A stretch of 38,326 nucleotides of DNA from Candidatus Bathyarchaeota archaeon. GTDB taxonomy: Archaea; Thermoproteota; Bathyarchaeia; Bathyarchaeales; Bathycorpusculaceae. Made by a program: the position numbers and the translations under genes. The stretch is from assembly GCA_003165195.1 (NCBI GenBank), contig PLSP01000045.1:1-38326 (forward strand). The letters run 5' to 3'. Numbering within the stretch: the first letter of the stretch is position 1; each line of letters starts with the position of its first letter. Shown piece after piece: positions 4,064 through 36,052 of this stretch. Under the pieces are notes generated by a model that saw nothing but the letters and a program-made list of their open reading frames with translations, searched no databases and was not told the origin of the DNA.

Positions 4064-5023
4064 TTGAATAAAAAAATCGTTGCTTTAACTTTAGTTTTAT
4101 TATTAACCACTATTTATGCAACTTCACTTTCAGTCTTACCTGCAAAAGCTCAAGGGACCGGCTGGCTTACTAGCTATGATATTTATGATGCAAATTCAAA
4201 TGAGCATCTTGCTTCATACAGCCCTTCCACAGGCAATCAATCTTTAGCGCCAATTGTGCCTGGAGCAGAAATTAAAGTAGTGTTTACCGTTGACGTTTTT
4301 ACGCCTGGCTCTGGGGACTTAAAGCTTGCAACCAGTTTACAAGCGCCCCCTCAAGGTCAATACTGGCAGTTGTCTAGTGGAAGCGCCTACACGTTAGGTA
4401 GCGATTTTAACCCTGATGCATCTCCCGCATCATTCAATTGGGTTCAAGGGACTTTCACCATGACCCTGATAGGGACAGTTCCAACTCCTTCAGGTTCCGC
4501 AACTCAAGCTTCACTTGCGGTTGTTACCCTCTATGGTCCAACGAGCGGGTTACCATTAGACTCTTTCACTGTACCAGAAATCAGTGCTGCTCTGACCCAG
4601 TTCCAAGTAATCTATAACGACAGAGTCAATCATGTGAAATCGCTTGAATCCCAAGGGGCAGCCCAGGGATACATTGACCTCTACAACAATGTTCTCAACC
4701 AGTCAGTAACTGAAGCCAACTCAGGAGATGTTACAAATGCCATTGCCCTGTTAAACAGCATGAATATCTCCAATGAACCCGTGTCACAGGCTTCCACGGT
4801 TGATATCTTGTTGCCGTTAGCCGGTGTATTTGCCGCTTTAGCTGTGGTCTTTGTTGTCATGTTCTTCCGTGTGAGAGGCAAAGTCAGCTACTTCCAACTT
4901 GTTGTAGAAGACCAAATCAAAGATCTCGAAGGCTTAACGCTGCGCGCCTCTAAAATTGATCGGGCCATGGCGTCAAACCTTGACTCTGTTAAAGATCGCC
5001 TCAAAAGATTGGTCGGGATGTGA
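4064..5023 (+). CDS. secreted protein with signal peptide and one C-terminal membrane anchor; partner of the tubulin-like protein
   Basis: The ORF track starts at 3965, but the better start is TTG 4064. It has cgagga 8 nt upstream and a TATA-like gttatatgc near 4019, and it begins directly with a signal peptide (NKKIVALTLVLLLTTIYATS, cleavage after about AKAQ). The mature ~215-residue outer domain is beta-rich and unrecognised, with a helical part before the membrane. A single transmembrane helix (PLAGVFAALAVVFVVMFF) is followed by a ~50-residue charged cytoplasmic tail predicted to be helical. The stop overlaps a GTG that probably starts the tubulin-like gene. I infer that the tail links filaments to the membrane. 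No enzymatic motif is seen. Confidence 0.7.
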   Translation: MNKKIVALTLVLLLTTIYATSLSVLPAKAQGTGWLTSYDIYDANSNEHLASYSPSTGNQSLAPIVPGAEIKVVFTVDVFTPGSGDLKLATSLQAPPQGQYWQLSSGSAYTLGSDFNPDASPASFNWVQGTFTMTLIGTVPTPSGSATQASLAVVTLYGPTSGLPLDSFTVPEISAALTQFQVIYNDRVNHVKSLESQGAAQGYIDLYNNVLNQSVTEANSGDVTNAIALLNSMNISNEPVSQASTVDILLPLAGVFAALAVVFVVMFFRVRGKVSYFQLVVEDQIKDLEGLTLRASKIDRAMASNLDSVKDRLKRLVGM

Positions 5024-7720
5024 TAGAATACGCGAATCTACCAAAACAGCGTACAACTGATTGGACTCGGCTCAGCCGGGACAAACATTGTAGAATCTTT
5101 CCTAAACAACAAAAAAACAAAAGAATTATTGGAAAATGACCTAACACGTCTTTCTCTTTTAGCCATCGATATCGCTGACCCCGAAATCAGAGCCTTGCAA
5201 GAATCTTACGCGCAAATACAGAAATCCATGATTAAAGGCGGCATCCCCGCGGAGAGAATGCGGGTAATAGCCCAGTCAGTAAAGTTTCCAACTGCAGAGG
5301 CAATGTTTGATTTCATCAACCAAAAATTCGCTGAGTACGTAATATGCGAAGGCTCCAAACTTGAAAAATTTGAACCTTGGCTGAGCTCAACGATGGCTAT
5401 TCCTCCTATGGCTGGCGGTGCAGGCAGAAGAAGAGCCCTAGCCAAAGCAATCTACGCCTTAAACTATTATCAACTTGGAATTATTCGAAACTGTATAAAC
5501 GCCTTCAAAGAACAAGCCCTTTCCTCGATCCTAACGCCAACAGTTGTTTTAGTTTACGGTTTAGGAGGCGGCACAGGAAGCGGTATATTTTTTGATTTTG
5601 CCAAACACCTGCGAAAAGTCCTCGGCTCAGGCGTTCCAATAATAGCATTCGTCGTAACCCCATGTGGAGGAGACGACCCGCCTGCAAAAGGGTGCTCGGC
5701 ATTTACCGCAATAAATGAGCTATCACTTTTGCTAAACAAAGATTACAACCAATATGTCATTGACCAATATGGCGAATGCTATCGCAACCCACTTAACGCA
5801 CTCATTTACCTTCCGCTGTTGCCTGCTTTCTCAAAAATCGGTAACATAGTTAATGCCCGTAGAGAAATGGACGACATGGTCGTAGACATGCTTTATGTTC
5901 TGATGGATTTCGACTTAGCTGACTTGCTGGGTGGAATTGGCACAGAAGTCGGACTGACAAATAACTCAGCACACACCTTGGGCATGATGAAAATCAATTA
6001 TCCAGTTGAAGAATACATCAACGCCTACAAGCTTCAATTTGAAGAATTGCAACTTTTGCAGGATTCCAGAAGAGAAAAACTGGACATTTTAGCTGAAATC
6101 GGCGATGTCATAAAAGTCGACTGGGATATCGCAACCGAATTGTTCAAGAGTTACTTGATCAAAACAGGGACATTTAACGAGGAGCAGTTCGATGAGAAAC
6201 TGAAGACCACCATCAACAGCAACCCACGGCTTGAAGAAGATTTAGCCCTGCACGTGAAAGGTGTGGAGATACAGGTTACAAATTGGACAACCGAGATAAT
6301 GAAATTTCTCTCCACGGTAAAATTAATGGGAAAAGCTGGGCCAATTGAAGACGCTATCATTAACTTGACACTCAAAAAAGAAGGCTCAAGAAAACTAGAC
6401 AACATAGAAGTCCTGCTTACCACACTCTCAAAAAACTACCTTGAATTCCGAGAACGGAAAGCTAACATTATGGAGCGGCTAAACCAACTAATTCCCAGCT
6501 CGCAAGTCTTCACGTTGCGGCAAAAGAAGCTCTTAGAGGACCTTGTGAACTTGGCTGAAATCGCTGAGAAATCGCTGGATCTAATGCAGTTTTACGATGA
6601 AACCCGTTATCTAACAGACGCTTTAATACGGTACTATGAAGTGCTGCCGGAGAGTCAAAAGGAACTGCAAGACCTGCGAGATATTCAATCGGAACTAGCA
6701 ACCGTCTACCTAATCATTCAGTTGATGCTTAGAAACCCAGTTGACGAGGCAAAAATGATTGATGAACACGCCACATACGTTAACGAAATAATGGCGCAAA
6801 GGATGCAAAAAAGAGGTGACTTCGACAATGAAGTCATGCGTGTCCAAGAGACTAAAAAACGTAAAGAATTCGATAAAGAAAAGATGGACAGGCAACTACG
6901 TAAGACCTTTGGCGGAAAACGTTACGCCAGAGAACAAATGCTCGATCTTGAGCGCGACCTAAAGAGAATAGAGCAGGAAGAAGCCTTCGCGCTAGATAAC
7001 CTTGACAAAGTAGACGCCACGATCCAGCTTTATGGCAGATTAGGCAAACGTTTTGAACTTGTCTCAGAATACCGCAAACGACTAAACAAAATAGTAGACA
7101 TCGACAGAGAGCACGAAGAAAAAATCGCTGAAATCACATCACCCAAACGTTACTACGAAAAATCCGCTGACCTAACCCAAGCCGAACAACAAAAAATCAT
7201 CTTCAAAATTCTGACCGAACAGGAAGAAAGCCTCACACGAGAAACCATTTTCCGAGACATCATGGACATGGACCACTTCAAAGATTACATGAAGAGCGTA
7301 GTACGCGTATTCAAAACACCAAGCGTCATGGGCTACAAATCGGACTACAAAACTGACTACATCTGGGTAACTGTGCAGTCGCCGCCGAACATGTGGACGG
7401 AAGACATGTCCCAGGAAGTTTACACGGCGCTAGCAGGGTATGTTACCAGCGAAGTTTCAAGAACCATTACCGTCAGGGTAACTGAATCGCGAGACGCATG
7501 GACAACCCGCGTTCTTGTGGTAGGCGGCAGAGGTAAACCAGAAGACATGGAAGCCTACGACGAAATGCAGCTGCTTTACAACAAATCAAACGACTTCGAA
7601 CGGCACCTATCAAGATCTTATCTGATTGAACACAACGTCTCAGCACGACAAATAATCAAGGATTTTAACGCCAACGGCACCGTTACAGAAACCAACGGCA
7701 ACCAAACAAACAAAAAATAG
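5020..7720 (+). CDS. large tubulin/FtsZ-superfamily GTPase with coiled-coil extension (Tubulin_2-like)
   Basis: A ~900-residue GTPase of the tubulin/FtsZ superfamily. Upstream of the track start (TTG 5129) the frame is open and encodes the first nucleotide loop, VQLIGLGSAGTN, so the track start is too late. Other loops follow in order (track numbering): T3-like PMAGGAGRRRALAKAIY (93-109), the signature GLGGGTGSG (144-152), and a T7-like catalytic segment MDFDLADLL (259-267). After the ~340-residue GTPase part comes a long charged coiled-coil region (~430-680) and a C-terminal globular domain with RVLVVGGRGK. The architecture resembles bacterial tubulin-like proteins of the Pfam Tubulin_2 type rather than FtsZ, CetZ or artubulin. 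No ATG/GTG/TTG exists in frame before the T1 loop. GTG 5020, overlapping the previous stop, becomes in frame if one A is removed from AAAA at 5043-5046. Polymerisation is inferred. Confidence 0.82.
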
Positions 7721-7723
7721 TTA

Positions 7724-7743
7724 AAGGAGCGTTTAAGCTCCTT
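7724..7743. terminator. hairpin between convergent genes
   Basis: AAGGAGC-GTTTAA-GCTCCTT is a perfect 7-bp stem with a 6-nt loop, placed between the two convergent stops (7720 and 7733). It could act as a terminator on both strands or stabilise 3' ends. The T-tract is weak. Confidence 0.4.
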
Positions 7744-8884
7744 CCAAAAGATTTTTCGTCATCGCTTGCCACTCTTCCTCTTTTATGGCACCTTTTTTGA
7801 TCGCGCTTGCCTTCAAACTCTTAGTTTTCATTTCATACTCGGAGAACATTTTTGAGGTGTCAAAGCCACCGATAAGTAATGCAACATCGATGCGGTCGCT
7901 TGTGTCTTCGGTGTAGACGGGTTCAGTTATGTAGATTGATTTCAGGTTGGCTTTTTCCTTGAACCACGTTGCTATTGCTAACTCGATTTTTCCTCGCGGC
8001 AGCTTGTCTTTGAGGCTTTCTGGCATACGTATGAGAACATAGAGCAAACCAGCGCTTGGTAAATCAAAGTTCAAAAGTGGCTTAAGCAACGCGGCTTCAA
8101 AGATATTTTCGAGTGATCCATAAATTTTCATACTTGCACCTGAAGCGAGCAATGCGGCAAACATTTTTGTGTTAAATGTTCTTGACAGCTCGGTCACTTC
8201 GTCTGCGAGGGACTCCTTAGACAACAACAAATCCACTAAGTAATTTACGATTAAATTGCCCTTCATCTGAGCTCCACTTCTGTCAACGCCCTCAAAGTTT
8301 TCCAAGCAATCCCTATCCAAAAGCAAAATCGTAGAGTCGTCAATGGAAACGCAGTTTCCAAGTGCTGCAAACGCATTAAAGTATGCATCCGAAGGCTGAA
8401 TTTTGGACGGCAAGATAGCCAGTGATAACGCGTTTTTGTTTGTCTCTTTGAACTTGGATATCAACGTCGGCAAAGAGGCGCTGCCAACTCCATCCCACAC
8501 TGAAGCCACAATGACTACACCGCGCAGCTTCTCGATAGGTTTTTGGCTGAGACTTTCAACAATGCTTTGATTCTGCGAAATATATGGCAATACGTTATAC
8601 CAAAAATGTGTGTTAACATTTGCATCTTCGAAACCTAAAACAAAATGAGGGTTATACCCTTTGGGAATCCACTGGTAAATCTCCTCGCTTGACTTGTCAA
8701 CAAAAATTGCGATGGTTTCCTGGGTTTTGCTATTTAGCTGTTTGAGGAGCAGTTTGATGGGGTATTCGCCGATGCAGACTATGGCTTGTTTAGGTTGAAG
8801 GGGCTTTAATGAATCAATGTGGGTCTTAACGCTTTCCAATACGTTAAAAGCTCCTTTGCCATCCGTCATTAGAGGTACCTGCAT
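7733..8884 (-). CDS. divergent FtsZ/tubulin-fold protein with degraded nucleotide-binding loops
   Basis: Protein of 383 residues with no signal or membrane segment. Its order of segments follows the FtsZ/tubulin fold. A first strand and loop (QAIVCIGEYPIK, 33-44) stands where GxGxxG would be. A strand and loop (VVIVASVWDGVGSASL, 123-138) stand where GGGTGTG would be. NALSLAILPSKIQPSDAYFNA (from 151) resembles the FtsZ segment after it, and IDDSTILLLDRDCL resembles the base-contacting strand. The C-terminal DRIDVALLIGGF resembles the FtsZ C-domain strand. The T1, T4 and T7 residues needed for GTP hydrolysis are missing. It is best read as a pseudo-GTPase partner, by motif order only. It is convergent with the tubulin gene and divergent (46 bp) from the polytopic gene. 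Confidence 0.6.
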   Translation of the reverse strand: MQVPLMTDGKGAFNVLESVKTHIDSLKPLQPKQAIVCIGEYPIKLLLKQLNSKTQETIAIFVDKSSEEIYQWIPKGYNPHFVLGFEDANVNTHFWYNVLPYISQNQSIVESLSQKPIEKLRGVVIVASVWDGVGSASLPTLISKFKETNKNALSLAILPSKIQPSDAYFNAFAALGNCVSIDDSTILLLDRDCLENFEGVDRSGAQMKGNLIVNYLVDLLLSKESLADEVTELSRTFNTKMFAALLASGASMKIYGSLENIFEAALLKPLLNFDLPSAGLLYVLIRMPESLKDKLPRGKIELAIATWFKEKANLKSIYITEPVYTEDTSDRIDVALLIGGFDTSKMFSEYEMKTKSLKASAIKKGAIKEEEWQAMTKNLLEGA

Positions 8885-8929
8885 AAGCTTTAAGAAGAGT
8901 TAGCTAAAATAAGGTTTTAGGTTGTTTGC

Positions 8930-11329
8930 TTGAAAAGGCCCTCTCTTAAAATTCCTAACCTCAAAGGATTTATTAAAAACAGCAAAGAAAAAGAGCAGCA
9001 ACAACGCAACCTTGAATCATCAACGTTGAAAATGCTCACTTTTGCAATCACACTTGTCGCCATGGCGCTCGGCATGTCTTTTCTGCCGCTGTTTCCCCAA
9101 CCGTTACCACTGCTTCTTGCCGTGTTGGTAGCGTTCATAACGTTGAAAGACCCTCGGTTCGGAATGCCGGTAGGCGGCGTCATAATCGGGTTAGGCTTAA
9201 TGTACCATTTATCGATCGCTCCGATTTACTTCATTTCCTACCTCGGAGCAGAACAGATACGCGTTGCATTTGTTTTCGTTTGGATGGCGTTGTTTGTTGC
9301 TTTGCCTGTAATTTTTCACCGCTTTAAAGCTGCCCTCGCAATCGACTTTGGTATATTGTCGGTAACCATGCTGTTCTTCGGCTCAACCTATTTTCTAGCT
9401 ATCCCGTTAATTATGGCTTCAGCAGTGTTCTTCAAAAAATACGTCAGTCTCTCAGTTGTTTACTACGCCTTAATATCTGTGCCTCTGATGATCTCCCAAT
9501 ACTACTTATTCACGGTTAAGCCAATTGTGCAGACTGACTGGTGGAATGTTGCAGGCTCAAGCCCCCCTGTATTCACTTCGCTTTCGCCTATCTTGTCCAA
9601 CATAAACTCGTCGATAAGCCAGTTCCGACTATATGATACATCCCAGTTTATCTACTCCATAACGGGGCAGCTTACATGGACACCTAACATACTGGGGCGC
9701 TCAATGGGGGCAGCTTTCTCCCAGTATCTTGACTCGCTTCCCGGCATATTCATGTTCATGGTTATCTTGGTTGGGCTTGCATCAACAGTCCTCTTCTTCA
9801 CGCAAATCCTAACCAAAGAAGGTTTTATCGGTAGCGGCGACAGGCTTTTCCCCTGCTTCGTAGCCACCATCACCGCAGCCATGTTTTTCATTTTCATAAG
9901 TGCCCTCCAGTATCCTTTGGCTTTCACAGCCGACGTCGGGCCCTCAACCATGGTCTTGGGCATTTTAGCGACGCTTTTCTTCACTCTGCCCGTAGCCTTC
10001 ATGGATTACACGCCCAAGCAGAGCGCAACAACCCCGATTGTGACTCAGAAGGCGCAGACACTTCTTGGCAAACTGCAGACGTTTGAGGCGCAGCTGAACA
10101 ACGTTAAAGCCAGCATCCCCGTAGTTGTAAGTTCCCCTGAAGGAAGGATGTTAGTCATCAAAGACTCACTTGAAGACACTTTAAAGAAATCCAAGGCTGA
10201 ATTTTATGAAACGGTTGAGTTAAACAGGAAATTTGATGAGTTACAACGTTTTGGTAAAGACATTGACAGTTTAGAGGGCGAACTAAACGCCATTCTCTCC
10301 GAGTACCAAGTATTTGTCACATGTGAATACTCTAACTGGGTTGGTAAACTCAAAGACAGCGGCTTAGAAATAAAAACCGCAAACAACATCGTCTTCCAAA
10401 AAGAAATGGCTCTTGACGCAAGAGTAGATGCCATCAAGCAAATCCTTGATGCTGGACGATCCCTCGCCATAGAGGTTGCCCAAATCGCCGAGCCAATCTA
10501 CGCTGTCATCAGACCTCTCTATGACCCTGCCCTTCCAGAGAAAAGCCGATCAATAGAGTTCACTATGCAAAAGCTTGAGCAAAAAGAGGCACCTTGGATA
10601 GCAATCGAAGCTCTCTACAATTCACTAAACAATTGGAAGCGTCAGTACGGCAAAGACATAGTGGCGTCGATGCAATATCTGAAAAACTCGCTTGTACCAA
10701 TAGCTAGCTTAAGCGGGGAAAATGAAGTTTTGCCGCCGATTTTTGGCTCGAAGTTGCCTAAAGTTCTTGATTACGCTAGAAAAGCTGAAGCTATGAAAAC
10801 CACAGGTGACAGAAAAGCTGAGGGCGACCAGCTAAACTTGGTAGACGTCATCTCGCTTAAAGATGACATCCAATCCTTCCTCGATATATCAGAAGACGTT
10901 TTGGGTATGCTTTACTCTCAAGTCGTTAGCGAAGAAGACGCACTTGACCGCCTGTTGCCCACCAAAGATTTCATCTGGGACAAAAACAGCACACTTCGCG
11001 AACGGTTGAAGAAGGCAACCGAAACTCTCTCGAACCCGTCTGGTTACCAAATCAACCAAATAATGCAGAATCTCCCCGGCTATCTCAACTATGTGGATGA
11101 GGCAGTGCAGACGCTGGCGGTTTACAACGAACGCAAAGAATTCCTGCTCAACTATCCCACTGCCGAAGCGGCCATTGAAGACCAACTGAAAAAGAAAAAG
11201 AGCCTCTCACCCCAAGACCTCCCTTTCCAAACAAGGTTTGCAGCCGAATATATGCGACTTTACTATACACAAAGGTTTGGCGACTTTAACTACGACAAAG
11301 AAAACATGCAACTAACAAAAAAGAATTAG
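8930..11329 (+). CDS. polytopic membrane protein with long helical cytoplasmic domain
   Basis: Protein of 799 residues starting at TTG 8930 with no ribosome-binding site, so probably leaderless; a basic N-terminus (KRPSLKIPNLKGFIKNSKEK) precedes the membrane. About eight to nine hydrophobic helices span 35-360, with an extracellular loop around 195-265. From ~370 to 799 the protein is soluble, charged and mostly helical, with several coiled-coil-like stretches (for example ILSEYQVF region and EDALDRLLPTKDF region). I do not recognise a family. Neighbours suggest it is the membrane scaffold of the tubulin-like system, its helical domain facing the filament. It shares a 46-bp divergent promoter region with the FtsZ-fold partner. 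Confidence 0.65.
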   Translation: MKRPSLKIPNLKGFIKNSKEKEQQQRNLESSTLKMLTFAITLVAMALGMSFLPLFPQPLPLLLAVLVAFITLKDPRFGMPVGGVIIGLGLMYHLSIAPIYFISYLGAEQIRVAFVFVWMALFVALPVIFHRFKAALAIDFGILSVTMLFFGSTYFLAIPLIMASAVFFKKYVSLSVVYYALISVPLMISQYYLFTVKPIVQTDWWNVAGSSPPVFTSLSPILSNINSSISQFRLYDTSQFIYSITGQLTWTPNILGRSMGAAFSQYLDSLPGIFMFMVILVGLASTVLFFTQILTKEGFIGSGDRLFPCFVATITAAMFFIFISALQYPLAFTADVGPSTMVLGILATLFFTLPVAFMDYTPKQSATTPIVTQKAQTLLGKLQTFEAQLNNVKASIPVVVSSPEGRMLVIKDSLEDTLKKSKAEFYETVELNRKFDELQRFGKDIDSLEGELNAILSEYQVFVTCEYSNWVGKLKDSGLEIKTANNIVFQKEMALDARVDAIKQILDAGRSLAIEVAQIAEPIYAVIRPLYDPALPEKSRSIEFTMQKLEQKEAPWIAIEALYNSLNNWKRQYGKDIVASMQYLKNSLVPIASLSGENEVLPPIFGSKLPKVLDYARKAEAMKTTGDRKAEGDQLNLVDVISLKDDIQSFLDISEDVLGMLYSQVVSEEDALDRLLPTKDFIWDKNSTLRERLKKATETLSNPSGYQINQIMQNLPGYLNYVDEAVQTLAVYNERKEFLLNYPTAEAAIEDQLKKKKSLSPQDLPFQTRFAAEYMRLYYTQRFGDFNYDKENMQLTKKN

Positions 11330-20856: not shown

Positions 20857-21186
20857 AAGATCAGTAGCGGTGGACCACAACGGTTCGACGCCTAGACTCC
20901 GCCAGTCCCTTCAAGCCCTACGCTCTTACCCGCACCCCCTTGAGCGCACGACGTCCAAACTTAGGTTGCTCTCTCCCGAGCCTAGCCGGGTTCGCCTGGT
21001 GAACAATGAAGTAACTCCCCTACGGAAGTCACCCACAGACCGCCAGCCCCAAAGGACGGATAGTCAATGTTTCGGAAATGAAGATCCAAGCGGCCTTTGA
21101 CGCCTCATCCGCAGATGTCGGCCCGTCGTATAGAGGGTTTACGGTACAATGGACCCCTACCCCACCGCCTAAGATCCACCGCCGAA
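20857..21186 (-). ncRNA. archaeal signal recognition particle (7S/SRP) RNA
   Basis: On the minus strand the domain IV hairpin is clear: CACCAGGCGAACCCGG, then AGGCUC-GGGA-GAGAGCAACC, matching the SRP helix 8 with GNRA-type tetraloop, asymmetric AGCA loop and following GGACGUCGUGCG. The 5' Alu-side GGUGGGGUAGGGGUCC and GGGCCGACAUC also fit archaeal 7S RNA. The 5' stretch GAUC...GGCGGUGG pairs with the 3' CCACCGC...GAUC. Length is ~330 nt. Ends are approximate, set from the TATA at 21207-21214 and the closing helix. SRP RNA guides secretory proteins to the membrane. Confidence 0.9.
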
Positions 21187-26820: not shown

Positions 26821-27636
26821 TCAAGCCTTAATTTTAGTGGCTACTTTTAGGGCTGAGGCGGCTGCTTGCAGTTCTTTTAGCATTGCATTAGTATTGTCTT
26901 TGTGTTTTTGGGTTAGGTTGATGAATGCGCTTCCGACGATGACGCCGTCTGCCCCTGCCCCGATAATTCGCGAAACGTGTCCTGGCTTGGAGACTCCAAA
27001 GCCCACTGCCAACGGAATCTTGGCCGCCGTGAAAGGCAGCACCCGTTTGACAAGGGCGATGGTTGAATCTGAAACATCTGTTTGGGTGCCTGTGACGCCG
27101 AAGTGGGAAACGAGATACAGAAAACCCGACGAACACTCAACAATCCGTTTGAGCCGCTCGTTGGAGGTGGATGGGGCGGCTAGAAAGATTGTGTCGACAC
27201 AAGTTTTGCTTGCCGCCTTTTTGTAGTCGCCTGCTTCTTCAATGGGCAAGTCGGGTACAATGACTCCGTCTAATAGGCACTCTTTTGCTAAAGCGAAGAA
27301 TTTGTCGAGGCCCATCCTGAACACTGGGTTGTAATATGTCATGACAGCGATAGGCACGTCATGCCGCAGGCGGATTTCCTTAGCAATTTCAAGAACCTTA
27401 ATGGGAGTTGTTCCAGCCCTTAGCGCCCGTACGCTCGCAGCCTGAATTGTAGGTCCATCGGCGATGGGGTCAGAGAACGGCAAGCCAAGCTCCAGAACGT
27501 CAACGCCACCTTTGATTAATGCATCAGCAATTTTGAGAGTTAAGTCCGGCGTTGGGTCTCCAGCGGTGATGTAGCCGACGAGGGCGCCGTTTCCATTTGC
27601 TTTGGCTTTTTGGAATGCAACCGATATTGAGCTCAT
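26821..27636 (-). CDS. trpA: tryptophan synthase alpha subunit
   Basis: TIM-barrel enzyme of 271 residues that cleaves indole-3-glycerol phosphate to indole and glyceraldehyde 3-phosphate, feeding Trp[21 protein letters not shown] contains the catalytic glutamate and the signature aspartate region, [12 protein letters not shown] the second, and [11 protein letters not shown] with [10 protein letters not shown] the phosphate-binding end. Length is normal. The start overlaps the trpB stop by 4 bases. Last gene of the operon. Confidence 0.95.
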
Positions 27637-28835
27637 ATTTTTACCCCGATGTAATCAGCTATGGTTTCCACGTCTTTGTCGCCTCGCCCTGACAAAGTTA
27701 CAACTATGGACTGCGTCTTTTCCATTTTAGGCGCCAGTTTCATCGCATAAGCTACCGCATGAGAGGACTCCAAAGCGGGTAGAATGCCTTCTTCTCTGGA
27801 TAGAGTAAGGAAAGCTTCTACTGCTTCCTTGTCGGTCGCTGAAACGTATTGTGCCCGCTTGAGTGTTTTCAGAAAAGAATGTTCGGGTCCAACGCCTGGG
27901 TAATCTAAGCCTGCAGATATGCTGTGGGTATTTTGGATTTGCCCATTACTATCCTGGAGAAAGTACGAGAACATTCCGTGGAATACCCCTTCGGAACCCG
28001 CAGATAATGTGGCAGCATGTTTGCCTGTTTCTATGCCTTCACCTGCAGCTTCCACACCATAAAGTTTGACTACAGAGTCATCTTCAAAAAAGTAAAATGT
28101 GCCCATTGCATTGCTTCCGCCGCCCACACAAGCAACCAACGCGTCAGGCAATCTGCCTTCTTTAGTTTGGAATTGCGTTTTGATTTCTTTACCTATAACA
28201 CTTTGAAAATCCCTAACAATCATCGGGTACGGGTGTGGACCCATTGTAGACCCAATCAAGTAATAGGTAGATTCAATGTTAGTTACCCAATCCCTAAAAG
28301 CCTCATTAATGGAGTCTTTGAGGGTTTTTGTGCCCGATTCCACAGGGTGCACTTCAGCGTTTAAAAGTTTCATACGGAACACGTTGAGGCGTTGACGTTC
28401 ACAGTCTTCCGTGCCCATAAATATTTCCGCTTTCAACCCTAAAGCTGCGCAAGCTATCGCGGTGGCTACACCATGCTGTCCAGCTCCAGTCTCAGCAATT
28501 ACACGCGTTTTGCCCATTCGTTTAGCGAGCAACGCCTGTCCGAGTGTGTTGTTGATTTTGTGTGCTCCGCCGTGGGCCAAATCTTCGCGTTTGAGGTAAA
28601 TTTTAGCCCCGCCCAGCTTACGCGTCAAATTCTCAGCGTAATACAACGGGGTCGGTCTGCCCACGAAATCTGCAAGGTAATAGTCGAGTTCTTTTTGGAA
28701 GCCGGGGTCTTTCCTTGCTTGGCCGTAGGCTTCTTCCAGCTCCCTGATTGCCTCCATAAGAACTTCAGGTACGAATCGGCCGCCGTATTTCCCGTATTTG
28801 CTGTCAACTGGGTAACTGCTTATTTTATTTTGCAT
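27633..28835 (-). CDS. trpB: tryptophan synthase beta subunit
   Basis: Pyridoxal-phosphate enzyme of 400 residues joining indole and serine to tryptophan. The PLP lysine lies in [18 protein letters not shown], followed by [12 protein letters not shown] and the phosphate loop GGGSNAMG. Length and the N-terminal [17 protein letters not shown] match the TrpB1 type that works with TrpA, not the standalone TrpB2 type. It overlaps trpC by 11 bases and trpA by 4. Confidence 0.96.
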
Positions 28836-29604
28836 TCACAAACTCCTTGACCTTCTGTTCAATATCGCTGCTTGACATTATGGCTGATCCGATAAGGAAA
28901 GCTCGTGCGCCAGCCTGTTTCAAAAACTCTATGTCTGCGGTTGTGTTGATGCCGCTTTCACTAACAACCAGTTTGCCGTTAGACCCGTTTTCAGCCAGAA
29001 TTCTCTTCGTCACGCCCAAATCAACCTTTAATGTGGATAGGTTGCGGTTGTTTATTCCAACCAAATCTGCGCCTGAAGTTACGGCAGAGCAAAACTCCGC
29101 TTTAGTGTGTGTTTCAAGCAGAACTTCAAGCCCCAACAGATGGGCTCCAAGTATCATTTCATCCACGCTTTTCTCGATGTAGCCTCTATCAAAGAGCGCT
29201 TGAATCAACAAAACAGCGTTTGCCCCCATCTTATAAGCCGACTGGATCTGCACCGGACTCACAATTATGTCTTTCATAAGAATAGGCAACTTCACTGCCC
29301 CTCGAGCCTGAGCTAACGCTTCAAGCGAACCGCTGAACTGCCTGGGTTCAGTTAACACAGATAACCCTGTTGCTCCGCCTCTTTGCATTGCCTTCGCAAT
29401 CTCGCCTGCATCAATGTTTGATCTTATGACGCCAGCGGATGGTGAAGCAGCTTTAATTTCACTTATAACAGGAGCTGCTTTGCAGTTTAGAATTGCCTGC
29501 TTTAAACTGACATGGATACGTTCTGAGGGTTGAGCTTGATCGTAATATTCGTCATCAACGTTTATTTGTGCTACCCGGGCCAGCACATCAAGATAATCAC
29601 GCAT
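28825..29604 (-). CDS. trpC: indole-3-glycerol-phosphate synthase
   Basis: The track starts at 29655, inside trpD; ATG 29604 ([13 protein letters not shown]) is a better start, overlaps the trpD end by a few bases and gives 259 residues, usual for the enzyme. [17 protein letters not shown] carries the catalytic lysine and SPS motif, LMKDIIV the second lysine, and [11 protein letters not shown] plus VSESGI the product-binding residues. It closes the indole ring. No fused phosphoribosylanthranilate isomerase domain is present. Confidence 0.94.
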
Positions 29605-30658
29605 ATTTCTCTTCAAACTCCTTAAGTTTAGACTCACTACCCCCCGAAGCCACAATTAAACCTTTAAGCTTACGGTAGGCAGCACCACTTATGATTGATT
29701 CACGAGCTAACTCCATACCCCCTTCAAAATCCTCAGCTCCCCCGCCAACAACAATTCCTGCAGCACTGTTAACAAGGGCAAACTCCACTTTGGGATCGTC
29801 GAGGGCAAGATTGCCGCTCACAATTCTGAAGAAAACTTCAGCGTTTTCCTGGGCGGCTGCCAACTTCAAATCTGCAATGGATGCTTTCTCTACTTTGAAA
29901 TCGCTTGGAGAAACCTCAAACTCTTGTACTTCGCCGTTCTTTAACCATGCAACAACGGTTTTTCCAACAGTTGACACCTCATCCAAACCATCTAAACCGT
30001 GGACAACCATGGCTTCTTCACAGCCCAAACGTTTCAAAGCATAAGCCAACGGCGCAGTCAACTTCTGGTCGTAAACTCCTAAGAGCTGCGCGTTTGCAGA
30101 TGCAGGGTTAGTTAATGGACCCAGAAGGTTGAAAACGGTGCGAATGCCAATTTCCCGTCTCGGTTCAGCCGCATACATCATTGCAGGATGAAAAGCTGGG
30201 GCAAACATGAAGCCGATGCCCACCGTCTCAATGATGCGCTCAACCTCTTTAGGCTGCAAATCTAAATTGAGCCCAAGCTTTTCCAGCACGTCGGCGCTTC
30301 CACTTTTGCTTGTAACCGCCCTGTTCCCATGCTTAGCAACTGCGACACCTGCGCCCGCAATCACGAATGCCGCTGCAGTGCTGACGTTGAAAGTTTTGAT
30401 TTTGTCTCCGCCCGTACCGCAAGTGTCAACAAGGCGGCTTTGCACATGGGGGTGGATTTTGATGCTGTGCTCGCGCATTACCGCGGCAAAAGCAATTAGT
30501 TCCTCAACAGCTTCGCCTTTCATTCGCAATGCTGTTAGAAAAGCCGCTGTCTGCGAGCTTGTTGCTTTACCTGAAATGACTTCACGCATGATTTCCCCTG
30601 ACTCATCGCTTGTTAAGCTGTTGCCTTCAATGAGTTTCTGTATGCCTTCCCGAATCAT
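29597..30658 (-). CDS. trpD: anthranilate phosphoribosyltransferase
   Basis: Enzyme of 353 residues that attaches phosphoribose from PRPP to anthranilate. DTCGTGGDKIKTFNVSTAAA is the glycine-rich PRPP loop, VAKHGNRAVTSKSGSADVLE the second signature, and residues GLDGLDEVSTVGKT the family segment. The start overlaps the trpG stop by 4 bases. Length is normal. Confidence 0.95.
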   Translation of the reverse strand: MIREGIQKLIEGNSLTSDESGEIMREVISGKATSSQTAAFLTALRMKGEAVEELIAFAAVMREHSIKIHPHVQSRLVDTCGTGGDKIKTFNVSTAAAFVIAGAGVAVAKHGNRAVTSKSGSADVLEKLGLNLDLQPKEVERIIETVGIGFMFAPAFHPAMMYAAEPRREIGIRTVFNLLGPLTNPASANAQLLGVYDQKLTAPLAYALKRLGCEEAMVVHGLDGLDEVSTVGKTVVAWLKNGEVQEFEVSPSDFKVEKASIADLKLAAAQENAEVFFRIVSGNLALDDPKVEFALVNSAAGIVVGGGAEDFEGGMELARESIISGAAYRKLKGLIVASGGSESKLKEFEEKYA

Positions 30659-31242
30659 GGCCGATTTCCATCCAAGAAGTTTTTAATTATAATTTTGCCG
30701 TCTTCGCAAAGAATCGACTCAGGGTGGAATTGGACGCCGTCAATTGGAAATTTGACATGCCTAACCGCCATAATTTCCCCGTCATCAATACATTCAGCAC
30801 TGATTTCAAGACACGACGGAACAGATGAGCGTTCTCCTGCTAGCGAGTGATACCGCGTAGCCGTGAAGGGATTGCGAACGCCTTTAAAGATGCCCTTTTG
30901 GTCATGTTCTATGGTGCAGGTTTTGCCGTGCATTAGACGCTTGGCATGGACGATTTTGCCGCCAAAAGCATGGATTATTCCCTGATGCCCCAGACAGACA
31001 CCTAAAGTGGGAATGGAAGGGCTCATTGTTTGAAGGATTTTTGTGCACACCCCGAAGTACTTTTCATCTTCAGGGGTACCTGGCCCCGGTGAGATAACTA
31101 TTCGGTCAGGATTTAGCAGCCTCAATTCTTCCAACGTTACTTTGTTGTTTCTGTAGACTATTGGTTCAGCGCCCAACTCGCCGATGTACTGTACTATGTT
31201 ATACACAAATGAGTCGTAGTTGTCAATCACAACAACCTTCAC
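30655..31242 (-). CDS. trpG: anthranilate synthase glutamine amidotransferase subunit
   Basis: Class I amidotransferase of 195 residues supplying ammonia to TrpE. The catalytic cysteine is in LGVCLGHQGI, the oxyanion strand is VISPGPGTPEDE, and the histidine and glutamate are in VQFHPESIL. The start overlaps the trpE stop by 4 bases, supporting tight co-translation. A para-aminobenzoate role (pabA) is possible, but the trp context favours TrpG. Confidence 0.94.
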   Translation of the reverse strand: MKVVVIDNYDSFVYNIVQYIGELGAEPIVYRNNKVTLEELRLLNPDRIVISPGPGTPEDEKYFGVCTKILQTMSPSIPTLGVCLGHQGIIHAFGGKIVHAKRLMHGKTCTIEHDQKGIFKGVRNPFTATRYHSLAGERSSVPSCLEISAECIDDGEIMAVRHVKFPIDGVQFHPESILCEDGKIIIKNFLDGNRP

Positions 31243-32646
31243 TTAGGCGCACCTCCAGCCATCTCCAGCGCCTTCATAAGCGCCCTTGCTTTGTGTTCCG
31301 TTTCAAACCACTCCTGCTCTGGTACAGAATCAGCTACGACGCCTCCGCCTGCTTGGATGTAGGCTTGGTTTTTGTCGGCGAAGAGAGTGCGGATGGTTAT
31401 GGCGAAGTCTGCGTTGCCATTGTAGGAAAAGTAGCCGACGGCTCCAGCATAGGGCCCACGCCTAGCAGGTTCCAACTCGTCAATTATCTCCATTGCCCGC
31501 ACCTTTGGGGCTCCAGAAACCGTTCCCGCAGGAAAAACAGCCCGCAGTGCATCGTAACTTTGAAGATTATCGCGAAGCTGCCCCACTACTCGAGAAACAA
31601 TGTGTTGCACATGACTGTACTGATGGACTTTCATGAATTCGGGAACATGAACACTTCCAAACTTAGAGATTCTGCCCACATCGTTTCGCGCTAAATCAAC
31701 AAGCATTACATGTTCAGCCCGTTCTTTTGGGTCGGCTAATAATTCAGCGACTAATCTGTCGTTTTCGACTGGATCTTGAGCAACCGGTCGGGTGCCTGCA
31801 ATTGGGAAGGTTTCAACCGTCCTATCTTCGACTCGGACAAGCATTTCTGGGCTTGCTCCAACGATTTGCCGCTCGTTGGACTTGTAAAAGAACATGTAGG
31901 GAGACGGGTTGATGGTTCTGAGCGCCTCATAGAATGGGACCAAATTGCCGTTTGTTTGGAACTGGAAGCGTTTAGAGGGAACAACTTGGAAGATGTCTCC
32001 AGCGGTTATGTATTCTTTTGCTTTTTGTACTGCTGCCTCATAGGTTTCTTTTCTTATGTTTACTTTGGGCTCAGTGTATGTTAACAATTCTTGGTCAATA
32101 GGCTGCTTCAGCAGGTGTTCAACCTCAGGTAGACGGTTTTCGCCGCGGTAATAGTAGTAGGCTTGTTTTTTTATATGGTTGAAAGCTAAGCCGTCATCAA
32201 ATATGCCCATTTCTAAGTCGGGAAAACCCAGTTCTGCTTTCCCATTCTCCGGTAGGCTTTCCCAGTAGTGAACAGCATCATAGGAAATATATCCGACTGC
32301 TCCGCCGACGAATCGAAATTCGCTGTTGGAAGAGGCTTGATCTTTGAGGAGGCGCTCTAAAATTTGGAGTGGGTCTTTTGTTTGCTCCGTGATTGTTTGT
32401 CCTGTTTGTTGATTTTGGATTTGGGCTATGCCGTTTTTTGTTTGGAGGGTTATTTTTGGGTCGAATCCAATAAACGAGTATTGGGCTAGTTTTTTTGGTC
32501 CTTCGATGGATTCTAAAAGATAGGTTGTTTGGTATTGTTTTTGGAGTTTTGAAAATATTTCGAGGGGTTGCTGTTGGAGCGAAATCTGTTGGATTTTTAG
32601 GGCGTCTGCTGATTTAGGTTTTGTTGTGCCAAAGGCGATTCCCCAT
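31239..32646 (-). CDS. trpE: anthranilate synthase component I, with start offset by one base
   Basis: Chorismate-using enzyme, first of the pathway. The track shows only the last 323 residues, from ATG 32210. The frame is open further upstream and encodes the TrpE N-terminal domain, including TTYLLESIEGPKKLAQYSFI (the feedback-site LLES) and FRFVGGAVGYISYD. The catalytic part has SPEMLVRVE, IAGTRP, DLARNDVGRI and GTVSGAPKVRAMEI. No ATG/GTG/TTG precedes the N-terminal domain in frame. ATG 32646, with AGGAG 8-9 bases upstream and a TATA at 32688-32694, fits perfectly if GGGG (32641-32644) is read as GGG, giving GIAFGTTKP and 468 residues. A one-base assembly error or recoding is likely. Confidence 0.88.
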
Positions 32647-35974: not shown

Positions 35975-36052
35975 GGGTCCGTAGCTCAGTCAGGCTAGAG
36001 CATCGGACTCTTAATCCGAGGGTCGCGGGTTCAATTCCCGTCGGACCCGCCA
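35975..36052 (+). tRNA. tRNA-Lys (anticodon CTT), CCA encoded
   Basis: The cloverleaf folds fully: acceptor GGGTCCG with CGGACCC, D-arm GCTC...GAGC, anticodon stem TCGGA/TCCGA around loop CTCTTAA with anticodon CTT (36010-36012), T-arm GCGGG-TTCAATT-CCCGT, discriminator G and an encoded CCA. No intron is seen. A body of 75 nt plus CCA. Confidence 0.97.

Follow-up and report, generated by a model that had tools for sequence, protein, structure and literature searches.

The closest described relatives of the system treated here are the FtsZl1 proteins (PF13809, Tubulin_2), for which a membrane-remodelling system linked to von Willebrand A (vWA) proteins has been proposed (Makarova & Koonin 2010, PMC2875224). 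The sequences of FtsZl1 proteins have been known since then. A 2023 survey put Tubulin_2 proteins aside, and no functional study of FtsZl1 after 2010 was found in the library searched. The present analysis concerns a 38,326-nucleotide stretch of DNA, referred to as the window, from Candidatus Bathyarchaeota archaeon (contig PLSP01000045.1 of assembly GCA_003165195.1). It contains a locus that links one FtsZl1 protein to a constant tubulin-fold partner and two integral membrane proteins. Positions 4064-11329 code for four proteins in the order SP>GTPase>Z2<TM>. SP is a signal-peptide protein, the GTPase is the FtsZl1 protein, Z2 is the second tubulin-fold protein and TM is a polytopic membrane protein. 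As read from its sequences, this set is, with moderate probability, a dedicated membrane-attached filament machine of the tubulin superfamily.

Conservation of the four-gene set

A first-pass annotation of the window had proposed that these neighbouring genes serve one machine, and had suggested a survey of gene order in related genomes. All four genes are present, and the set is also kept in about 20 other genomes, which excludes a chance origin. The survey was made within one phylum, and 121 genomes of the class were scored for presence. Among the sampled Bathyarchaeia loci, those of families f1 and f14 with a sufficiently long contig again show the order SP>GTPase>Z2<TM>, and the flanking genes differ between genera. 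The exceptions are a divergent locus (L043) and a locus with extra DNA between GTPase and Z2 (L051). The former reads SP>GTPase>TM, followed by a 346-aa gene whose identity as Z2 could not be confirmed. Two genomes of another class (L108, L109) carry the genes as a co-directional operon, SP>GTPase>TM>Z2, adjoining a PCNA-like gene, with profile matches of 9e-31 for SP, 7e-217 for the GTPase, 1.5e-7 for TM and 3.8e-6 for Z2. The neighbourhood is therefore conserved across genera and into a second class, and the genes stay together despite changed flanks and changed order.

The partners also occur only with the GTPase, as a single machine would lead one to expect. The GTPase is present in 21 of the 121 genomes. 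Of these 21, 19 have SP, 19 have Z2 and 19 have TM, and no partner is found outside them except for a relic of TM in genome G028. Contig ends account for some of the gaps, and the others come from the divergent G059 and from G004, where the GTPase stands alone. The hypergeometric probability of this co-occurrence is about 3e-20, with kinship between genomes ignored. Weak matches of the Z2 profile in G027 and G032 coincide with ordinary tubulin/FtsZ genes and were excluded from the count. Taken together, the sequence comparisons support SP, GTPase, Z2 and TM as one inherited unit.

A fifth protein, of about 310 residues, is encoded directly downstream of TM in most f14 loci and in G063. It matched no known family. 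The window genome has an unlinked homologue (G000:C61:13475-14347; L132:7473-8423; profile E 4e-32). In the genus sample, the protein is found in all five carriers of the system and in none of the four non-carriers; across the class it is found in 20 genomes, 17 of which also have the GTPase. The remaining genomes are G028, G062 and G101, the last two being incomplete drafts. The fifth protein is missing from two members of the family that have the system, G084 and G099. By its distribution, this protein largely tracks the system and appears to belong to it in most carriers. Multiple copies also occur: there are three matches in G102 and a pair of neighbouring ones in G111, where one of the pair is fused to a membrane protein.

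The relic in G028 (L129, G028:C6, about 5420-6768) consists of the C-terminal ~78 residues of TM, followed directly by the fifth gene. It suggests loss of the remaining locus.

Patchy presence within the genus and the family would also suit a defence or conflict module, an explanation that is scarcely probable. PADLOC gave only a weak LmuB coiled-coil match, for TM, and plasmid occurrence is limited to remote tubulin-like proteins of Rhodococcus and Agrobacterium. The set has a chromosomal site beside core metabolic genes. One flank carries genes for an ECF-type transporter, a GHMP kinase, a nucleotidyltransferase and a ribbon-helix-helix protein, and the other a phosphoribosyltransferase/hydrolase pair. 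The relic and the conserved order likewise suit ancient inheritance followed by loss.

Two tubulin-superfamily proteins and two membrane proteins

Judged from its sequence, the GTPase is a member of the known FtsZl1/Tubulin_2 family. It matches PF13809 with 51.2 bits (curated cut-off 27; E 1.5e-13) and PF00091 (Tubulin) with 34 bits (E 4.9e-8), the latter also above its curated cut-off, and all 16 aligned orthologues match both families. Tubulin-like proteins of Rhodococcus share 28-30% identity with residues 8-294, over about 287 residues (best E 5e-19). The protein is not a canonical FtsZ: it scores 11.9 bits against the FtsZ equivalog TIGR00065, where 295 are required, and a Pfam scan gave no match to FtsZ_C.

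The T1, T4 and T7-like motifs (Table 1) are largely invariant across an alignment that extends down to 31% identity. The T4 loop GGGTGSG pairs with GGGTGTG of FtsZ by hhalign. The first-pass annotation had described a tubulin/FtsZ-superfamily GTPase with all GTP loops; the family assignment is borne out, and the claim about the loops stands for these three motifs only. FtsZl1 proteins are described as having a coiled coil and then a mostly alpha-helical C-terminal domain. The GTPase has a predicted long helical arm at residues 326-703, with C-terminal strands predicted at low confidence. Conservation is 0.49 in the arm, compared with 0.68 in the core and 0.64 in the C-terminal region. The last was considered as a homologue of the C-domain of FtsZ or Z2, for which the comparison gave no support; its alignment to Bathyarchaeia FtsZ is unconvincing.

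The second member of the superfamily is Z2, which, on profile and model evidence, has a tubulin/FtsZ fold. Its match to PF00091 is weak. Against PDB chains, the Z2 profile matches the tubulin superfamily only, with the Asgard tubulin AtubB2 (5.6e-6) and CetZ (6.6e-6) among the matches, and hhalign aligns Z2 to FtsZ over 221 columns. The AlphaFold2 model has a predicted local distance difference test score (pLDDT) of 72 overall and of about 73-93 from residue 120 onward; residues 43-119 are poorly modelled. In a Foldseek search with this model, the top 50 matches all belong to the tubulin superfamily (tubulin, FtsZ, CetZ, TubZ), with a best E of 1.6e-12 and TM-scores of about 0.45-0.6. The "tubulin-like" label of the earlier description is thus supported for both proteins.

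The same description had given this second protein dead loops, and this too agrees with the alignments. Intact T1 and T4 glycine loops are absent from Z2. The T1 position reads IGEYPIK. The T4 position reads WDGVGSA in the window and EGVT(A/S)G or EGSSSG in f14, with G132 as the sole invariant residue. Z2 was also considered as a decayed copy of the GTPase. This was rejected, since hhalign pairs just 77 columns around T4, and PF13809 is not matched by Z2, whose matches are to PF00091 and to CetZ/Asgard tubulins.

The two other proteins are predicted to lie in the membrane. SP has a signal peptide, a single anchor and a cytoplasmic tail, as the first-pass annotation had said. The tail is its best-conserved part, with a mean pairwise identity of 0.57 compared with 0.35 in the ectodomain. 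The loci examined hold 33 entries of SP homologues, and the SP profile gave no matches to PDB profiles. Upstream of SP, many f1 loci carry a divergent gene (e.g. L025:11865-13682) whose product has a signal-like N-terminus and a GH5 cellulase domain (PF00150); this gene is absent from the window. TM combines nine hydrophobic segments with a helix-rich region of the predicted length, about 430 residues. It matches no Pfam family above cut-off, transporter families included, and its PDB profile matches were set aside as coiled-coil noise. The spacer between Z2 and TM had been described as a shared divergent promoter region of 46 bp; the divergent spacer is there, and its length is 45 bp. The signal peptide, the predicted transmembrane segments and the conserved tail agree with the description of the system as membrane-attached.

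Table 1. Features of the locus, in window positions
Feature	Position	Strand	Description
SP	4064..5023	+	319 aa, TTG start; predicted signal peptide, ~215-aa ectodomain, transmembrane segment about 248-268, 51-aa cytoplasmic tail
GGGATGTGAT	5015..5024	+	overlaps SP stop; Shine-Dalgarno-like, 5 nt before ACG
ACG, putative GTPase start codon	5030..5032	+	ACG in 18/19 family-f1 loci
GTPase, FtsZl1/Tubulin_2 family	5030..7720	+	896 aa
T1-type loop GLGSAGTN	5063..5086	+	residues 12-19; G12, L13, G14, G17, N19 invariant in alignment
T4 signature loop GGGTGSG	5564..5584	+	residues 179-185; invariant in alignment
T7-like DFDLADL	5906..5926	+	residues 293-299; D295, D298 invariant; cf. FtsZ NVDFADV; assigned by inspection
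Long helical arm of GTPase	6005..7138	+	residues 326-703; AlphaFold2 helices, pLDDT mostly 75-90 except about 430-500
Conserved C-terminal region of GTPase	7145..7639	+	predicted beta-alpha-beta-beta near residues 776-833, low model confidence
Z2	7733..8884	-	383 aa; tubulin fold, degenerate GTP loops; convergent with GTPase
Z2/TM divergent intergenic region	8885..8929	.	45 bp; divergent arrangement kept in f1 and f14
TM	8930..11329	+	799 aa; 9 predicted transmembrane segments (about 35-360), then ~430-aa predicted helix-rich cytoplasmic domain

The window is a complete contig (C41) of a Bathyarchaeia draft genome (G000; 95% complete, 5.5% contamination), and sequence comparison shows genomes of Candidatus Bathyarchaeota and Bathycorpusculum to be close relatives. 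Elsewhere it carries an archaeal signal recognition particle RNA gene (Rfam RF01857, 139.6 bits) at 20868-21181 on the minus strand and a tRNA-Lys (CTT) at 35975-36052. A tryptophan biosynthesis cluster lies at 26821-32210 on the minus strand, consisting of TrpA, a TrpB-like enzyme dependent on pyridoxal phosphate, and TrpD-like and chorismate-binding proteins.

Translation start of the GTPase

The first-pass annotation had called two of the open reading frames coupled; between SP and the GTPase there is a gap of 6 nt. In the window, the T1 loop of the GTPase has no ATG, GTG or TTG ahead of it, and an in-frame TAG lies at 5024. Open reading frame callers set the start at TTG 5129, which would remove the invariant T1 loop. 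The likeliest reading of these sequences is that translation initiates at an ACG. The lone exception among the f1 loci is L057, with ATG at the site. Among 110 fourfold-degenerate columns with an invariant residue (17 full sequences), this ACG is the one invariant codon. The f14 orthologues have ATG or TTG at the equivalent position, and a few f1 loci have an additional in-frame TTG or GTG upstream of the ACG.

The sequence GG(G/A)ATGTGA is found in all 19 f1 loci, and GUGAU in this Shine-Dalgarno-like element is complementary to the 16S anti-Shine-Dalgarno sequence. The element in the window, GGGATGTGA, is conserved and similar to a Shine-Dalgarno site, and it overlaps with the stop codon of SP; most likely it aids initiation at the ACG. 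Production of the GTPase would then be coupled to SP through close re-initiation at a conserved weak start, which probably keeps the dose of the GTPase low.

Alternatively, the ACG may not itself be used. The GTPase could depend on C-to-U editing of ACG to AUG, on an unrecognised start site, or on frameshifting or readthrough from SP, all of which are highly improbable. In favour of editing, the genomic ATG of L057 matches the pattern of edited plastid start codons. To our knowledge, however, no C-to-U editing of mRNA is known in archaea. The distance from the SP stop to the ACG is 4, 5 or 6 nt across f1 loci, so that the frame of the GTPase relative to SP varies. Frameshifting or readthrough therefore cannot be the common mechanism, and frequent double stops also speak against it. 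A sequencing error or frameshift at the start was ruled out, since independent assemblies whose spacers differ also lack a standard start.

Initiation at the ACG would make this codon a rare, testable example of evolution preserving a non-standard start in archaea. Searches of an incomplete literature library found no archaeal ACG start. Gene annotation limited to ATG, GTG or TTG would clip the T1 loop in many f1 members.

Proposed function and comparison with known systems

Complex formation, polymerisation, recruitment, function and use of the ACG are all inferred from sequence. In the proposed mechanism, the FtsZl1-type GTPase would bind GTP and assemble together with Z2. Z2, presumably unable to bind GTP normally, may serve as a partner, as a cap or as a nucleator. 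The polymer would be brought to the inner side of the membrane by the SP tail, which is cytoplasmic, and by the TM helical domain, and the ectodomain of SP would reach toward the envelope. The helical arm of the GTPase might space or bundle filaments, or contact TM. Powered by GTP turnover, the machine would remodel the membrane locally or shape the cell, and would not be obligatory for cytokinesis.

Several points weigh against a filament machine. The T6-H7 region could not be identified in FtsZl1 proteins, and their formation of filaments was left open (Makarova & Koonin 2010, PMC2875224). In the AlphaFold2 model of the GTPase, the core failed, with a pLDDT of about 30 from 13 close homologues, so that a polymer-competent geometry is unsupported; Foldseek matches of this model were discarded as helical-bundle noise. 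The GTPase can exist alone, since G004 has it without SP, Z2 and TM. Finally, the cellular role is inferred from topology and analogy.

The failure to identify T6-H7 would also suit a complex for transport, secretion or envelope signalling. In it, the tubulin-like proteins would serve TM as a switch or a static scaffold, with neither dynamic filaments nor membrane remodelling. Transport or signalling was proposed by a reviewer of the FtsZl1 paper, and a complex of this kind would agree with a polytopic TM beside an exported, sensor-like SP. It is considered unlikely. TM has no transporter family above cut-off, the GTPase keeps T1, T4 and the T7-like acidic motif across the alignment, and a second tubulin-fold protein suits assembly better than a switch.

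Another explanation is a cell-division machine standing in for FtsZ. Such a role has precedent in the superfamily, and no canonical ftsZ was detected in the window genome. It is very unlikely here. The system is absent from four of the nine genomes sampled in the genus, and G028 retains only the relic. Canonical ftsZ is distributed independently, occurring with the system in G111 and without it in G090, and Snf7-type proteins (ESCRT-III/CdvB) are found in all sampled genomes of the family. The system therefore looks accessory, and it was probably lost several times.

If the filament machine is real, there is a membrane-linked tubulin-type apparatus in a mostly uncultured archaeal class that also has ESCRT-III-type proteins and sometimes FtsZ. 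The constant partner and the membrane proteins make co-assembly and tail-dependent membrane recruitment directly testable. A bolder version, put forward tentatively, holds that the GTPase and the pseudo-tubulin, the latter from another branch of the superfamily, form an obligate hetero-assembly that has dedicated integral membrane anchors and includes the fifth protein as a subunit. Prokaryotes would then have a separate class of cytoskeleton, older than the divergence of Bathyarchaeia from the other class, and the conserved ACG would set the dose of the GTPase.

The first-pass annotation had suggested a link to the FtsZ-like membrane-remodelling system, which the family of the GTPase upholds. 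Both systems have an N-terminal FtsZ-like domain with GGGTGSG and a long extension, coiled-coil or, as predicted here, helical, both have membrane or exported neighbours, and both coexist with ordinary division systems. The partners differ: the constant ones here are SP, the polytopic TM and the tubulin-fold Z2. No vWA, protein kinase, P-loop GTPase or OmpA-type neighbour was found among the scanned window proteins, vWA proteins elsewhere in the genome not having been searched for. As no vWA protein is among the scanned neighbours, the system is not classed as a vWA/FtsZl1 operon. The main text of PMC2875224 does not describe SP, TM and Z2 as FtsZl1 partners, and no description of a partner set including a pseudo-tubulin was found in the literature searched.

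The SSO1376-type crenarchaeal FtsZl1 proteins, which probably include L110 and L111, likewise place a Tubulin_2 protein of about 1,000 residues beside a membrane protein. In contrast to the set described here, they have transmembrane segments fused to the N-terminus of the GTPase and no adjoining homologue of SP, Z2 or TM. L110 (G196) and L111 (G353) encode Tubulin_2 proteins of more than 1,000 residues, with N-terminal transmembrane segments, beside another transmembrane protein; they represent a separate, little-studied system.

CetZ, AtubB2, OdinTubulin and FtsZ share their fold with Z2, whose best profile matches are AtubB2 and CetZ. Unlike them, Z2 lacks glycine-rich GTP loops and, where found, always accompanies an FtsZl1 GTPase. 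Two tubulin-superfamily proteins are also encoded or used jointly in tubulin heteropolymers, such as alpha/beta tubulin and bacterial BtubA/B. In the present case, each matches a family of its own (Tubulin_2 or Tubulin/CetZ-like), and the pair, of which one is a pseudo-GTPase, is encoded alongside dedicated membrane proteins. FtsZ with SepF or FtsA offers an analogy for a tubulin-like polymer tied to the membrane, whereas the anchors proposed here are integral membrane proteins. Relative to known FtsZl1 systems, the constant tubulin-fold partner is a new element.

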